The position numbers were made by a program, and so were the translations under genes. A stretch of 64,000 nucleotides of DNA from Pseudogemmobacter hezensis (GTDB lineage: Bacteria; Pseudomonadota; Alphaproteobacteria; Rhodobacterales; Rhodobacteraceae): the NCBI RefSeq assembly GCF_013155295.1, contig NZ_JABJXT010000008.1:1-64000 (forward strand), written 5' to 3'. Each line of letters starts with the position of its first letter. Position 1 is the stretch's first letter. Of the stretch, positions 43,942-49,835 are shown in pieces. The notes under the pieces are model-generated. The model had not been told where the DNA came from, searched no databases, and was given only the letters and a program-made list of their open reading frames with translations.

Positions 43942-44015
43942 GCGGGCGTAGCTTAATGGTAAAGCTCCTGGTTCCCAACCAGATGACGAGGGTTCGATTC
44001 CCTTCGCCCGCTCCA
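43942..44015 (+). tRNA. tRNA-Gly (CCC anticodon)
   Basis: A 74-nt cloverleaf including encoded CCA. The acceptor stem GCGGGCG (43942-43948) pairs with CGCCCGC (44005-44011); the D region is AGCTTAATGGTAAAGCT; the anticodon loop is TTCCCAA, giving anticodon CCC; and the T arm is GAGGGTTCGATTCCCTT. It reads GGG codons. It stands alone, 67 bp after the ASKHA gene. Confidence 0.95.
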
Positions 44016-44383
44016 TATCCTCAGACGATAAATTAGACGATAAATTTCTGAATTGCGAAACAGAGACAGCCTGTTTCGCAAGAAATCTGATGTGAAATCA
44101 TCTCTGGCATTCGCAAGGCCAGGGCCAGCCTGCCAGCCCCTGGCCAGCCCCCTGCCAACCGCTGCCAATCCCTGCGCGTGATCCTCTTTGCAGGGCCTCA
44201 TCGAAAAACCGCCCAGCAATCGGCCGCCCGTCCATTTTAGAAAGGGGCCGCAAGGCGCAGGTTTGATGCTGCGCGGAAGCCCTGCGGGCCTGCCTTTCTG
44301 GTCCGGCGTTGCATCACGCGGCCTCAGCGGGCAAACTGACCGGCCCAGCCCTTACTGGCACAAACAGATGAGAGACGTGTTTT
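44016..44383. other. 368-bp gene-free region downstream of tRNA-Gly
   Basis: It holds a 12-bp tandem repeat (44023-44046), a perfect 11-bp hairpin TTGCGAAACAG/CTGTTTCGCAA (44053-44081) that may terminate the tRNA transcript, and a low-complexity run of CTGCCAxCC-type motifs (about 44120-44175). The stretch after tRNA-Gly is AT-richer than its neighbours. No integrase or second tRNA 3' copy is visible, so it is not a proven island junction. Confidence 0.6.
44023..44046. repeat. 12-bp tandem duplication next to tRNA-Gly
   Basis: AGACGATAAATT occurs twice without a gap (44023-44034 and 44035-44046), eight bases beyond the tRNA 3' end. Confidence 0.9.
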
Positions 44384-45613
44384 ATGAGCAACCTCCGGGC
44401 CATCGCGGTCGATAACCCGTGGATCGAAACCATTTTCTGGCTGGCGCTGCTGCTGCTTGCGGCCGCTTTTGTGAATTACGTCGTAAAAGTCGCATTGGTA
44501 CGGATCCTTCATCGGCTGATCGGGGCGTTTCATTTTCTGCAGGGCGCTGAGGTCGTCCGGTCAGGGGTGATTGCAAGGATCGCCAATGCGGCCCCCGCGC
44601 TGGTCATCTCGGTCGGGATCGTTCAGGTGCCCGGACTGCCTGCAGCCGTGGCCACTGTCATCGGCAATGTGGCCAATGCCTTCATCATCCTGGTGTTCGC
44701 CATGGCGATCTCGGCGGCGCTTGGGCTGTTCCATACGATCTGGAACCGGCGTCAGGACGGCAATGGCCGCTCGATCAAGGGATATGTCCAGGTCGCGACA
44801 ATTGCTGTTTATGGCATCGCCGCCATTTTGATGGTCGCTGCAGTTATCGACCGATCCCCGATGATCCTCTTGTCCGGTCTGGGCGCGCTGACCGCGGTGC
44901 TGATCCTTGTGTTTCAGGATACGCTGCTGTCGCTGGTTGCCTCGGTTCAGATCAGCTCTACCGATATGGTCAAGGTCGGCGACTGGATCGAAATGCCGGC
45001 GCAGAATGCCGATGGGGATGTTATCGAAATCGCCCTGCACACCGTCAAGGTGCAGAACTGGGACAAGACGATCACCACGGTGCCGATCCGCAACCTGGTG
45101 ACCCAGCCCTTCAAAAACTGGCGTGGCATGCAAGAGTCCGGCGGTCGCCGGATCAAGCGTGCGATTAACATCGACCAGAACACCATTCGCTATCTGACAG
45201 ATGACGAACTGCGCAACCTGCAGCAGATGAAGCCGATCCGGGCCTATATCGAACGCAAGACCCGCGAATTGTCTGAGTGGAACGCCCTGCTGGAACCCGC
45301 AGATGCCAGCGTAAACCGTCGTCGTCTGACGAATATCGGCACCTTTCGCGCCTATGTCGAAAGCTATCTGAAGGCGCATTCGCTGCTGCGGCAGGATATG
45401 ACAATGATCGTGCGCCAGCTTCCGCCAGAGGCCAACGGCCTGCCAATCGAGATATATTGCTTCACCGATACGATCGCCTGGGTCGCCTATGAAGCAATTC
45501 AATCCGATATCTTCGACCATCTCTATGGCGTGCTTCCCGAATTCGGCCTGGCGGTATTCCAGGCGCCTTCGGGCAGCGATTTCAGAACCCTGTCGGCAAG
45601 CGAAGAGGCGTAG
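44384..45613 (+). CDS. mechanosensitive channel of the MscS family (YbdG-like)
   Basis: A 409-residue MscS-superfamily channel that releases solutes on hypo-osmotic shock. Five hydrophobic helices are visible within residues 1-190, the last being the pore-lining MscS helix (LLSGLGALTAVLILVFQDTLLSL region, about 166-188). The beta domain follows with VGDWIEMP and VKVQNWDKTITTVPIRNLV. The large C-terminal cytoplasmic part (about 260-400) and the length match E. coli YbdG. A strong hairpin terminator follows. It is not linked functionally to rpoH, which has its own upstream region. Confidence 0.88.
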   Translation: MSNLRAIAVDNPWIETIFWLALLLLAAAFVNYVVKVALVRILHRLIGAFHFLQGAEVVRSGVIARIANAAPALVISVGIVQVPGLPAAVATVIGNVANAFIILVFAMAISAALGLFHTIWNRRQDGNGRSIKGYVQVATIAVYGIAAILMVAAVIDRSPMILLSGLGALTAVLILVFQDTLLSLVASVQISSTDMVKVGDWIEMPAQNADGDVIEIALHTVKVQNWDKTITTVPIRNLVTQPFKNWRGMQESGGRRIKRAINIDQNTIRYLTDDELRNLQQMKPIRAYIERKTRELSEWNALLEPADASVNRRRLTNIGTFRAYVESYLKAHSLLRQDMTMIVRQLPPEANGLPIEIYCFTDTIAWVAYEAIQSDIFDHLYGVLPEFGLAVFQAPSGSDFRTLSASEEA

Positions 45614-45988
45614 ATCCTTTGCAAAATCCCTCAGCCGGCCCCACCGCAGCAGGCCGGCTGAGGAAAAGGCCAGGCCTGATCAAGGCAATGTGAGGGCCAG
45701 GGTCAGGGCCTGAAGCCGCCCCTTGCGAAAAAGGGGATTACCACGCCGATCCCCCGGCCCTTGCTGCAGGAAACCCAGTCGCGACAGAGCCTTAACTTCG
45801 ACGGGGATTGCCGCGGCCCTGGTGACATTCACGTGAACCCTCTGTCACAAACCTTTCAGCCCGCGCCCCCGCTTCCCATGTCACCTTCATCTTTCGTTGA
45901 CCCATCTCTTGTAACGAGTGAGGGTGAACCATAAGTGAAGCGGTTCTCCGGGGGCTAATGGCACCGGAAGAAGAAACAGGGGGCAGAC
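45614..45988. other. 375-bp intergenic region upstream of rpoH
   Basis: The left part holds the MscS terminator (45629-45663). The right part is the rpoH leader, with a 10-bp palindrome TTCACGTGAA (45828-45837), a TTGACC (about 45898-45903) that could be a -35 element, and a purine-rich ribosome site (GGGGGCAG) before the rpoH ATG. No coding frame is supported. Confidence 0.55.
45629..45663 (+). terminator. terminator after the MscS-type channel gene
   Basis: A perfect 12-bp stem CCTCAGCCGGCC/GGCCGGCTGAGG with an 11-nt loop, 15 bp after the stop. AAAA follows rather than a T run on the plus strand. Confidence 0.7.
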
Positions 45989-46885
45989 ATGAGCACCTAT
46001 ACCAACCTTCCCGCACCCAGCCCTGAGCAGGGTCTTAATCGCTATCTGCAGGAAATCCGCAAATTTCCACTGCTTGAGCCAGAGCAGGAATACATGCTGG
46101 CCAAAGCCTGGACGGAACGCCAGGATTCGAAAGCGGCCCACCAGCTGGTCACCTCGCATCTGCGGCTGGCCGCAAAAATTGCCATGGGCTATCGCGGCTA
46201 TGGCCTGCCGCAGGCAGAGGTCATCTCTGAGGCCAATGTTGGCCTGATGCAGGCGGTCAAACGCTTTGATCCGGAAAAAGGCTTCCGGCTGGCGACCTAT
46301 GCCATGTGGTGGATCCGCGCCTCGATCCAGGAATATATCCTGCGTTCGTGGTCTTTGGTGAAAATGGGCACCACCTCGGCGCAAAAGAAACTGTTCTTCA
46401 ATCTGCGCAAGGCCAAGGCCAAGGTCGGCGCGTTGGAAGAGGGTGATCTGCGGCCGGAAAACCTGGCCCAGATTGCCAAAGATTTGTCGGTGTCCGAGAC
46501 CGAAGTCGTCGAGATGAACCGCCGTCTGTCAGGCTCTGATGCCTCGCTGAACGCGACGGTCGGATCAGATGGCGATGGCGCGACCCAGTGGCAGGACTGG
46601 CTTGAGGATGAGGACAGCGATCAGGCAGGCGCCTATGCCGAGCAAGATGAGCTGGACACCCGCCGCCAGATGCTGACTGAGGCGATGTCGGTTCTCAATG
46701 ACCGTGAGAAAGACATCCTCATGCAGCGCCGCCTTTCCGAAGAGCCCGTTACGCTGGAAGATCTGTCGGAAAACTATGGCGTCTCGCGTGAGCGGATCCG
46801 CCAGATCGAAGTGCGTGCTTTCGAAAAGCTGCAGGCGCGGATGCGAGATCTGGCCCGCAGCAAAGGCATGGCAATCCCGGCCTGA
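45989..46885 (+). CDS. rpoH: RNA polymerase sigma-32 factor RpoH
   Basis: Heat-shock sigma factor, 298 residues. The N-terminal region 1.2 begins LNRYLQEIRKFPLLEPEQE; region 2 has SHLRLAAKIAMGYRGYGLP and DPEKGFRLATYAMWWIRASIQ-type core-binding and -10 recognition. The RpoH box AQKKLFFNLRKAK, which binds DnaK/FtsH and distinguishes RpoH from other sigma-70 proteins, is present. Region 4 ends VSRERIRQIEVRAFEKLQ. It stands alone with an extended upstream leader and a terminator. Many Rhodobacterales carry two RpoH genes; which one this is cannot be told here. Confidence 0.95.
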   Translation: MSTYTNLPAPSPEQGLNRYLQEIRKFPLLEPEQEYMLAKAWTERQDSKAAHQLVTSHLRLAAKIAMGYRGYGLPQAEVISEANVGLMQAVKRFDPEKGFRLATYAMWWIRASIQEYILRSWSLVKMGTTSAQKKLFFNLRKAKAKVGALEEGDLRPENLAQIAKDLSVSETEVVEMNRRLSGSDASLNATVGSDGDGATQWQDWLEDEDSDQAGAYAEQDELDTRRQMLTEAMSVLNDREKDILMQRRLSEEPVTLEDLSENYGVSRERIRQIEVRAFEKLQARMRDLARSKGMAIPA

Positions 46886-46918
46886 TCTGCGCGAAAAGCA
46901 CGTAAATACAATCAGATA

Positions 46919-46948
46919 CACCCGGCGCCCATGGTGCCGGGTGTTTTT
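46919..46948 (+). terminator. rpoH terminator
   Basis: CACCCGGC (46919-46926) and GCCGGGTG (46936-46943) form a perfect stem followed by TTTTTC, 33 bp after the rpoH stop. Confidence 0.9.
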
Positions 46949-47114
46949 CTGTCTGCCGTTTCCCGAAAAAAAAATCAACCAAAGCACGTTTTTTTCAAAA
47001 TCTCACCAAGGTCCCCCAGGGTGCCGACGTCTCTATATCAGACAGACAGCAATCATTGGCGGCAGTATGGGCGACAAGCCCATGCAGATCGCGCCACACC
47101 AGGGGAGGTTTGAA

Positions 47115-47903
47115 ATGACCTGTAACACCGTTCTTGAACTGCTTGGCCAGATCGCCTGCGCAAGCTCGATCGATGAGACATGGGAAATTGCCACCAGCCA
47201 TTTCGCAGGCATCGGCTTTGCCCGGGCGAATTACGGCTTCACCCGCTTTCGCCACCTGAAAACCATTGGCGACCCTGATGACGCGCTGTTTCTCAGCACC
47301 ATGGATCAGACCTATGCGCGGCGCTATTTTGAAAGCGGCCTGTTCAGCCGCAGCCCGGTTTTTCGCTGGGCAGAACGGAATTCAGGCCTGAAGACCTGGA
47401 AATGGGTGCATGACGCCCTGGCCGAGGGCCGCCTTTCCCCCGCCGAGGCCGATCTTGTGCGCCAGAATGACAGCAATGGCATTCGCGCCGGCCTGACCGT
47501 CAGTTTCCCCGAGACCTCCTCGCGCGCCAGGGGCGCATTGGGCCTGATCGCCGATCAAAATCTCAGCCATGAGGATGTCGAAGAGATCGTCCGCGAACGT
47601 CATGATGAGATCAACGCCATCGCCAATATGATGCATCTGCGCATCGTTCAGCTGCCGCAGCTGACGAAATCACGCGCGCTCAGCCCGCGCCAGCGCGAGG
47701 CGCTGGAATGGGTGGCCGATGGCAAGACCACCCAGGATGTGGCTTTGCTGATGGGGGTTTCCTCGGCGATGGTTGAAAAGCATCTGCGCCTTGCCCGCGA
47801 TGCCCTGGCTGTCGAGACCACGGCGCAGGCGGTGGCAAAGGGGGCTTTGCTGAATATGATTTTCCAGAACTTCCCCGCGCCAGCAGCCCAGGCCGCGCGA
47901 TAA
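47115..47903 (+). CDS. LuxR-type regulator with a degenerate autoinducer domain
   Basis: A 262-residue regulator with an N-terminal autoinducer-binding domain (about 12-165) and a C-terminal LuxR helix-turn-helix (about 190-250: LSPRQREALEWVADGKTTQD, then MGVSSAMVEKHLRLAR). Against TraR numbering with an offset of 10, Tyr61, Pro71 and Trp85 are kept (Tyr71, Pro81, Trp95), but Trp57 is Tyr67 and the key Asp70 is Ser80. No luxI gene is in the window, so it is a solo. The ATG at 47115 has GGGGAGG at ideal spacing; an ATG at 47067 is weaker. It lies in its own AT-rich promoter region after the rpoH terminator. Confidence 0.85.
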   Translation: MTCNTVLELLGQIACASSIDETWEIATSHFAGIGFARANYGFTRFRHLKTIGDPDDALFLSTMDQTYARRYFESGLFSRSPVFRWAERNSGLKTWKWVHDALAEGRLSPAEADLVRQNDSNGIRAGLTVSFPETSSRARGALGLIADQNLSHEDVEEIVRERHDEINAIANMMHLRIVQLPQLTKSRALSPRQREALEWVADGKTTQDVALLMGVSSAMVEKHLRLARDALAVETTAQAVAKGALLNMIFQNFPAPAAQAAR

Positions 47904-48039: not shown

Positions 48040-48951
48040 TCAGCCGCCAGCAAGAGTTTTCGCAACTTCTGCCGCGAAATCTTCTTCTTTCTTCTCGATG
48101 CCTTCGCCGACGGCCACACGGGCATAGCCGGTGATTTCGACGCCAGCTTCTTTGGCAGCCGCTTCAACGGTCAGGTCGGGATTGATGACGAAAGCCTGGC
48201 CCAGAAGCGTGTTCTCGGCGAGGAATTTCTTCATCCGGCCCGGGATGATGTTGTTGTGGATCACCTGCTCGGGCTTGGGCTTGGCCGAGGACGCATTTTC
48301 TTCCAGCGCCTTGGCGGTTTGCACGGCCAGCTCGCGCTCGACCACGACCGGATCAAGGGTTGCTTCCGACAGCGACAGCGGGTTGGTCGCAGCGATATGC
48401 ATAGCGAATTGCTTGCCGATCTCTTGCGCCTTTGCGCCTTCGCCTTTCAGCGCAACCAGCACGCCGATTTTGCCCATGCCGTCGGTGGCCGCATTGTGGA
48501 CGTAAGACACAACCGTGTCACCTTCCAGCGCATGCATCCGGCGCAGGGTCATGTTCTCGCCGATACGGGCGATTGCGTCGGTCAGCACTTCCGAAACGGG
48601 CTTGCCGTTCAGATGGGTGGCCTTCAGCACTTCGACGTCATTGGCGGTGGTCAGAGCGACTTCGGTGATCTCACGGACCAGCTTCTGGAAGTCGGCGTTT
48701 TTCGCCACGAAGTCGGTTTCCGAGTTGATCTCGATAGCCACGCCTTTGCCAGCGGTGACAGAAACGCCAACCAGGCCCTCTGCCGCAACGCGGTCAGCCT
48801 TTTTGGCGGCTTTCGCCAGGCCTTTGGTGCGCAGCCAGTCAACCGCGGCTTCCATGTCGCCATTGGTTTCGGTCAGCGCTTTTTTCGCGTCCATCATGCC
48901 TGCGCCGGTCGTCTCGCGCAGTTCTTTCACCATTGCTGCGGTGATGCTCAT
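48040..48951 (-). CDS. tsf: elongation factor Ts
   Basis: Guanine-nucleotide exchange factor for EF-Tu, 303 residues. The N-terminal UBA-like domain [30 protein letters not shown] is the standard signature. The core carries [15 protein letters not shown], and [10 protein letters not shown] and the C-terminal [12 protein letters not shown] motifs are intact. It lies 116 bp downstream of rpsB in the usual rpsB-tsf order and is followed by a strong terminator. Confidence 0.97.
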
Positions 48952-49067: not shown

Positions 49068-49835
49068 TCAGGCTTCTTCGGCGGTCGCTTCTTCGGCCGG
49101 AGCCTCGTCCAGCGCGCCGAGATCAACGCCTGCAGCACCCAGCTGCGCCGACATGCCGTCCAGCGCTGCGCGTGCGATCAGGTCGCAGTAAAGTGCGATA
49201 GCGCGGGCCGCGTCGTCGTTGCCCGGGATCACGTGGCTGACGCCTTTGGGCGAGTTGTTGGTGTCGACGACGCCCACAACCGGGATGCCCAGCTTTTGTG
49301 CTTCGAGGATGGCGAGGTCTTCTTTGCCAACATCGATGATGAACAGCAGGTCAGGAACGCCGCCCATTTCACGGATCCCGCCCAGCGAAGCCTGCAGCTT
49401 GGCCTGGTCGCGTTCCATGCCGAGACGCTCTTTCTTGGTCAGGCCTTCTGCGCCCGAAGCAAGGGTCTCGTCGATTTGCTTAAGACGCTGAATCGACTGG
49501 GAAATGGTTTTCCAGTTGGTCAGCGTGCCGCCCAGCCAGCGGTGGTTCATGTAGTATTGTGCGCATTTCTCAGCGGCTTCGGCGATCGGCTTCTGAGCCT
49601 GACGCTTGGTGCCAACAAAGAGGATACGGCCGCCTTTGGCGACGGTGTCGCGCACGACTTTCAGAGCCTGGTCCAGCAGCGGGACGGTCTGGGTCAGGTC
49701 AACGATATGGATACCGTTGCGGTCGCCATAGATGTACTCCGCCATCCGCGGGTTCCAGCGCTGAGTCTGGTGACCGTAGTGAACGCCAGCTTCCAAGAGC
49801 TGACGCATCGAGAATTCAGGGAGCGCCATGTCCAA
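49068..49835 (-). CDS. rpsB: 30S ribosomal protein S2
   Basis: Small-subunit protein S2, 255 residues. Signatures: [24 protein letters not shown] at the start, [30 protein letters not shown], and [19 protein letters not shown] with [13 protein letters not shown]. The C-terminus is extended and Glu/Ala-rich ([12 protein letters not shown]), as in many alphaproteobacteria. The 220-bp region before it should hold the operon promoter and S2 leader, but I see no defined structure there. Confidence 0.97.

Follow-up and report, generated by a model that had tools for sequence, protein, structure and literature searches.

The luxR gene considered here lies in a window of 64,000 nucleotides from Pseudogemmobacter hezensis (the whole stretch of DNA that was analysed, to which all coordinates refer). 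It belongs to a vertically inherited LuxR subfamily of the Rhodobacteraceae, Group 1 of the unknown LuxR solos, and is a further, mostly ordinary member of a group described since 2015. The reading that we favour, with slightly better than even confidence, is that the protein is an AHL-insensitive, dimeric DNA-binding factor. The ligand-binding domain would have lost the contacts of W57 and D70 (TraR numbering) to the AHL head group, the former being replaced by Tyr and the latter by Thr, Ser, Ala or Gly, and the DNA-binding domain would be nearly unchanged. The protein would bind DNA as a dimer, its activity would be governed mainly by the amount produced, and the pocket would be empty of ligand or hold an endogenous non-AHL metabolite. 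The identity of the ligand, or proof that there is none, would define the meaning of a “quorum-sensing” annotation that is very common in Rhodobacteraceae. The gene and its domains are placed as follows:

47115-47903, + strand: Group-1 LuxR solo, 262 aa (ORF call, Pfam, AlphaFold fold)
47169-47642, + strand: ligand-binding domain of the LuxR solo, residues 19-176 (Pfam)
47676-47834, + strand: HTH of the LuxR solo, residues 188-240 (Pfam)

The ATG start is preceded by a good Shine-Dalgarno sequence (aggggagg). Pfam assigns Autoind_bind (PF03472) to residues 19-176 with 73 bits (cut-off 23), and both Sigma70_r4_2 (36.5 bits) and GerE (PF00196, 29.7 bits) to the HTH; with Autoind_bind and GerE above their curated cut-offs, the protein is of the LuxR type. 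An AlphaFold model built from 68 orthologues (pLDDT 80.9, pTM 0.67) has the LasR ligand-binding domain as its best structural match (Z 18.6, rmsd 2.4 Å, 164 residues), and also matches full-length TraR, QscR, RhlR and SdiA, with the two domains rotated relative to each other. The positions that matter for ligand recognition are:

47313-47327, + strand: codons Y67 to Y71 (TraR W57 and Y61 positions; phmmer, profile and hhalign alignments)
47352-47357, + strand: codons S80-P81 (TraR D70-P71 positions; phmmer, profile and hhalign; Asp in 0/137 distinct orthologues)
47397-47399, + strand: codon W95 (TraR W85 position; invariant, 137/137)
47466-47468, + strand: codon N118 (Asn in 133/137; tentatively opposite TraR A105, in 2/3 alignments; phmmer and profile register)
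47691-47693, + strand: codon Q193 (TraR E178 position; Gln in 137/137)

The preliminary description had put Tyr67, Tyr71, Ser80, Pro81 and Trp95 at the TraR W57, Y61, D70, P71 and W85 positions. A phmmer alignment to TraR (1h0m) agrees, and the same register for all five residues is obtained from a profile of 68 orthologues and again by hhalign against 15 LuxRs encoded beside LuxI. Two of the six AHL pocket residues (W57, Y61, D70, P71, W85 and G113) are changed, W57 to Tyr and D70 to Ser, and the other four are kept. The W57M and Y61W pair of the PAB LuxR solos is absent, with Y67 and Y71 in its place.

Loss of the Asp on an intact scaffold, also proposed at the outset, extends to the whole family. 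From 154 proteins encoded at loci scoring at least 150 bits, 137 distinct orthologues were obtained, and position 80 is Thr in 82, Ala in 42, Ser in 8, Gly in 4 and Met in 1, with Asp in none; in the AlphaFold model the fold matches that of the LasR domain. W95 and G126 are invariant (137/137), and Y67 is found in 128 and N118 in 133 of these proteins. Ser80 itself, the conservation of which had been suggested as a check, turned out to be uncommon in relatives, Thr being present in 81 of the 89 members of the near clade. This clade A (at least 50% identity to the window protein, support 0.96) has mostly Thr80 and Tyr71, and D147 is conserved within it. The remaining 48 orthologues, clade B, have mostly Ala80 and Phe71, the Asp position being occupied by Ala or Gly. 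The takeover of the contact by another Asp had been considered too; columns 74-85 of the alignment hold no conserved acidic residue, and hence no sequence-adjacent residue substitutes for the missing one.

For comparison, the columns of W57, Y61, D70, P71 and W85 were inspected in 18 LuxRs whose genes lie no more than 1.5 kb away from LuxI, and all 18 keep W, Y, D, P and W. The sample is narrow: of the 20 LuxI loci with the highest scores in Rhodobacteraceae, 17 contributed to it. Against these paired LuxRs and the second LuxR of the genome, Group 1 forms a single clade (137/137 tips, support 0.765), which is a weak test since a threshold of 150 bits had been used to select its members. Judged from these alignments, a loss of AHL sensing is likely, and a non-AHL ligand, or none, is plausible. 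An alternative that we regard as unlikely is that the protein still is an AHL receptor that eavesdrops on the AHLs of neighbours, with Thr/Ser80, N118, or D56/D147 replacing Asp70. The scaffold does align with AHL-bound LasR, QscR and TraR, and this protein retains Y71, P81, W95 and G126. Speaking against it, almost every member has lost W57 and D70 jointly, the sampled paired LuxRs keep both, and in clade B an Ala or Gly stands where the Asp would be. Among the candidate substitutes, the acidic residues D56, which is invariant across the 68-row orthologue alignment, and D147 might reach the pocket. In TraR, T129 and A105 line the AHL pocket. N118 is paired with A105 in the phmmer and profile alignments, with a gap nearby in hhalign, and the T129 position corresponds to G143 (profile), A146 (phmmer) or D147 (hhalign). 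Ala146 as the T129-contact residue was dropped, since the profile and hhalign alignments give other registers.

The absence of a synthase from the neighbourhood, as first described, extends to the entire genome, where a search with PF00765 finds no match, and the protein is a LuxR solo in that it has no cognate LuxI. The same search matches 218 of 246 family genomes (246 different genera; 210 matches above cut-off) and all 11 other genomes of the genus, five strongly and six weakly but above cut-off, so that the absence looks peculiar to this genome; the assembly consists of 64 contigs, and a gap is conceivable. Since all 12 genus genomes examined carry the same luxR, the altered pocket does not result from the loss of LuxI. 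Some match to the Group-1 protein is found in 214 of the 246 Rhodobacteraceae genomes, about 174 being strong (E below 1e-30). At this threshold Group 1 is commoner in genomes with LuxI (166/218) than in those without (8/28), as counted by eye from tables, with the 8 of the 28 LuxI-less genomes assigned by elimination. This co-occurrence in most genomes is a further point for the AHL receptor; it may reflect a connection with AHL signalling, or phylogeny alone. A profile search across 289 genomes of the class gave 275 to 454 bits in the five Rhodobacteraceae and no more than 61 bits in any other genome, and in the searches run strong matches are confined to this family. The best 80 of 153 candidates encoding a relative in the genome_contigs scan (53-82% identity) likewise have titles that name Rhodobacterales taxa, three of them being bins labelled Pseudomonadota or Alphaproteobacteria only.

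Returning to the favoured reading of an AHL-insensitive factor, the two domains differ in conservation. Mean entropy is 0.65 bit in the HTH versus about 1.65 in the ligand domain, and because the HTH is so much more conserved, its DNA target site may well be common to the whole family. At 19 presumed pocket positions, mapped via the phmmer TraR alignment, the value is 1.45 bits, compared with 1.68 for the rest of the ligand domain, a difference that is not significant (permutation p 0.15). Because pocket conservation is not significantly above that of the rest of the domain, it does not demonstrate a ligand, and it keeps alive the stricter half of our preferred explanation, i.e., a ligand-free, constitutively folded LuxR regulator in which the protein's own side chains fill the pocket and activity follows expression only. 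We consider this a tentative possibility. That the Asp position varies from clade to clade (T, A, S, G or M) points in the same direction, but the invariant W95 and G126 together with the nearly invariant Y67 and N118 would fit a kept cavity. The preliminary description had also mentioned a host signal as ligand. We find no support for this and judge it unlikely, since the gene is fixed beside tsf-rpsB across so many genera.

Group 1 of the unknown LuxR solos was listed by Subramoni et al. 2015 (PMC4338825, Table 4) from 25 Rhodobacterales genera, with a layout of aroQ or any gene, luxR, and then tsf on the other strand, and with the residue changes W57Y, Y61F, D70I/G/A, P71V and E178Q. From the transcription unit shared with aroQ, a role in aromatic amino acid synthesis was suggested in the same source. 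The gene described here conforms to this pattern in its Rhodobacterales host, in the convergent tsf downstream, in having an arbitrary upstream gene (“geneX”, here rpoH), and in W57Y, a changed D70 and E178Q. It differs in the identity of the residue at D70, which is I/G/A as published in PMC4338825, whereas here it is Ser, and most of the near clade has Thr. The upstream aroQ of PMC4338825 is restricted to part of the other clade (directly upstream of luxR in 17 of 34 clade-B loci with long flanks, 30 of which have tsf) and occurs at none of the near loci (0/80, the best 80 of 153), and mscS-rpoH is upstream here only. Furthermore, the table in PMC4338825 prints rpoB after tsf, where we find rpsB. 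Dshi_1550 (luxR3) of D. shibae has been described as an orphan LuxR (PMC3824088), and we infer that it is the Group-1 gene of this species because its neighbour Dshi_1549 is a translation elongation factor (PMC7901474). Expression of luxR3 was reported as unchanged by AHLs in a luxI1 mutant (PMC4886583), a result that concerns transcription, not binding. In open-licence PubMed Central, we found no study of function, ligand, binding or reporter response of a Group-1 protein.

Compared with AHL receptors of the TraR/LasR/CerR type, the fold, the domain order and the residues at the P71, W85, G113, L182 and G188 positions are common, but W57, D70 and E178 differ, and no synthase was found here. 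The PAB LuxR solos OryR, XccR and PsoR (PMC10134790, PMC4338825) are likewise solos with pocket changes, but as described there these are W57M and Y61W only, and the genes lie beside pip genes. AvhR of Agrobacterium vitis combines W57F and D70S (PMC4338825, Table 3), i.e., an aromatic swap and loss of the Asp as in our protein, but has W85R where Trp is kept here, and its synteny is different. Another LuxR of Rhodobacteraceae with an altered W57 position (W57F) is CerM of Cereibacter sphaeroides (PMC11655674), although in that account Asp70 is kept, the gene lies beside cerR-cerI, and binding site and regulon have been mapped. CerM indirectly represses ctrA, and CerN-AHL counteracts this effect (PMC11655674), which could suggest that our protein acts as a partner or antagonist of other LuxR proteins through mixed dimers, in the way that CerN-AHL keeps CerM in check. 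A potential partner is encoded in the same genome (contig C13, 1360-2157 of locus L002), but it is the sole other Autoind_bind protein, is only 26% identical to the Group-1 LuxR, and no LuxI match is found in the genome, and we therefore regard a mixed-dimer role as quite improbable. According to the alignment, this second LuxR has kept the Asp at the D70 position, but Arg takes the place of W57 and Gln that of E178. Its gene is located between GntR-like and outer-membrane efflux-like genes (named by eye), without LuxI.

The surroundings of luxR contain the following features:

48040-48951, - strand: tsf, convergent with luxR; conserved neighbour (ORF and synteny)
49068-49835, - strand: rpsB, conserved neighbour (ORF and synteny)
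45989-46885, + strand: rpoH-type sigma factor, adjoining luxR in this genome only (Pfam, tblastn)
46918-46948, + strand: GC-rich inverted repeat followed by a T run, likely terminator after rpoH (read from sequence)
44016-47000, + strand: block (mscS-type channel gene and rpoH) between tRNA-Gly(CCC) and luxR that has no counterpart in the near relative L004, right border approximate (BLAST)

At the best 80 of 153 loci, tsf and rpsB are near luxR in 79, and tsf is convergent downstream in 78, the exceptions being L067 with tsf on the other side and L058 with none in its sequence. As stated originally, the LuxR solo directly follows rpoH in the window, but the implied synteny is not conserved. 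By tblastn, rpoH is absent from all of these 80 orthologue loci (search range 4 kb upstream at most, shorter where a contig ends; best 80 of 153), and in none of the 11 other genus genomes is luxR within 1.5 kb of rpoH, one contig ending 0.9 kb from it. The two genes are on different contigs in nine sister genomes, and 261 and 395 kb apart in two. Each sister has one close rpoH, and two have a second, 45-46% identical, all of them away from luxR. With these counts the rpoH linkage was ruled out as a functional clue, and the rpoH neighbour looks like a local, one-off rearrangement. Synteny with P. bohemicus (L004) extends up to the end of tRNA-Gly(CCC) at 44015, and the BLAST match resumes within luxR at 47169 (at 47113 and 47104 for L003 and L005); by eye, a ctcaccaagg near 47002 is common to the window, L003 and L004. 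The mscS and rpoH of the block have no match in the P. bohemicus locus. To judge from its sequence, the hairpin at 46918-46948, with its T run, probably terminates transcription of rpoH, separating this gene from luxR.

A dyad, ATGAC-N7-GTCAT, starts 118-157 nt 5' of luxR in part of clade A (Pseudogemmobacter, Tabrizicola, Rhodobacter and near genera). It is exact in 20 of the 89 clade-A upstream regions, and present in 30 at up to 1 mismatch (shuffles 0.5); 5' of aroQ in clade B it is not enriched (4/21 at up to 2 mismatches, shuffles 2.2). Nine of the 11 sister genomes have the exact site RTGACAWNTNCYGTCAY 5' of luxR; each genome contains between 0 and 3 additional matches, and the reversed control pattern gives none. 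Altogether there are 23 matches in the 12 genus genomes, 9 before luxR and 14 elsewhere, and no exact site exists in the genome of the window, the luxR upstream region included. An OmpR-type histidine kinase gene, present in all 11 sisters and missing only from the genome of the window, is no more than about 0.4 kb away from seven of the 14 sites elsewhere (7/11 sister genomes). Because the sites adjoin the kinase gene, and the kinase-less genome lacks the dyad at luxR, we read the dyad as a two-component-system site, which by this co-occurrence would feed into luxR in the sister species. Exceptions to the link are G534 with a kinase but no exact site, G536, which has a kinase and a single site, but not at luxR, and G532 and G540, with no exact site beside their kinase. 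An operator of LuxR itself, which was also considered, was set aside in favour of the two-component-system site. The input to luxR was perhaps lost in this genome through the event that brought rpoH. The presence of the dyad before luxR in nine sisters, as a motif common to the two-component-system cluster, also speaks for the ligand-free regulator introduced above.

In the sisters, a cluster of OmpR-type response regulator, histidine kinase and caspase-like (Peptidase_C14) genes is observed at loci L219, L225, L229, L230 and others; at L230, the kinase occurs with a response regulator and a Peptidase_C14 gene (Pfam; other neighbours by eye). The 17-bp dyad recurs near the kinase, before luxR, and before an MFS gene, as at L223 (Pfam). 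A more elaborate version of the non-AHL reading, which we find doubtful, is that throughout the clade the LuxR fold senses an endogenous metabolite, the gene being fixed next to tsf-rpsB in Rhodobacteraceae. The AHL contacts would then have given way to Thr or Ala in place of the Asp and to the near-invariant Asn118, and expression in Pseudogemmobacter and near genera would depend on an OmpR-type two-component system by which a caspase-like protease is controlled as well.

When up to 2 mismatches are allowed, a different repeat, CATAAT-N4-ATTATG, is located 44-238 nt 5' of luxR or aroQ-luxR in 20 of 48 clade-B regions (shuffles 0.6; examples are L107, L110, L167 and L188) and in 7 of 89 clade-A regions. 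It resembles the chromosomal dif site, and was for this reason set aside as a luxR operator. The window contains neither a match to the repeat nor a skew flip at luxR. CATAATNNNNATTATGTWA is absent from 11 of 20 genomes and occurs exactly once in the other nine, in five of these within 2 kb of luxR. The D. shibae dif region comprises Dshi_1554-1563 (PMC7901474), which fits with this proximity, and the Group-1 luxR/tsf locus thus seems to lie near the replication terminus in many Rhodobacteraceae.
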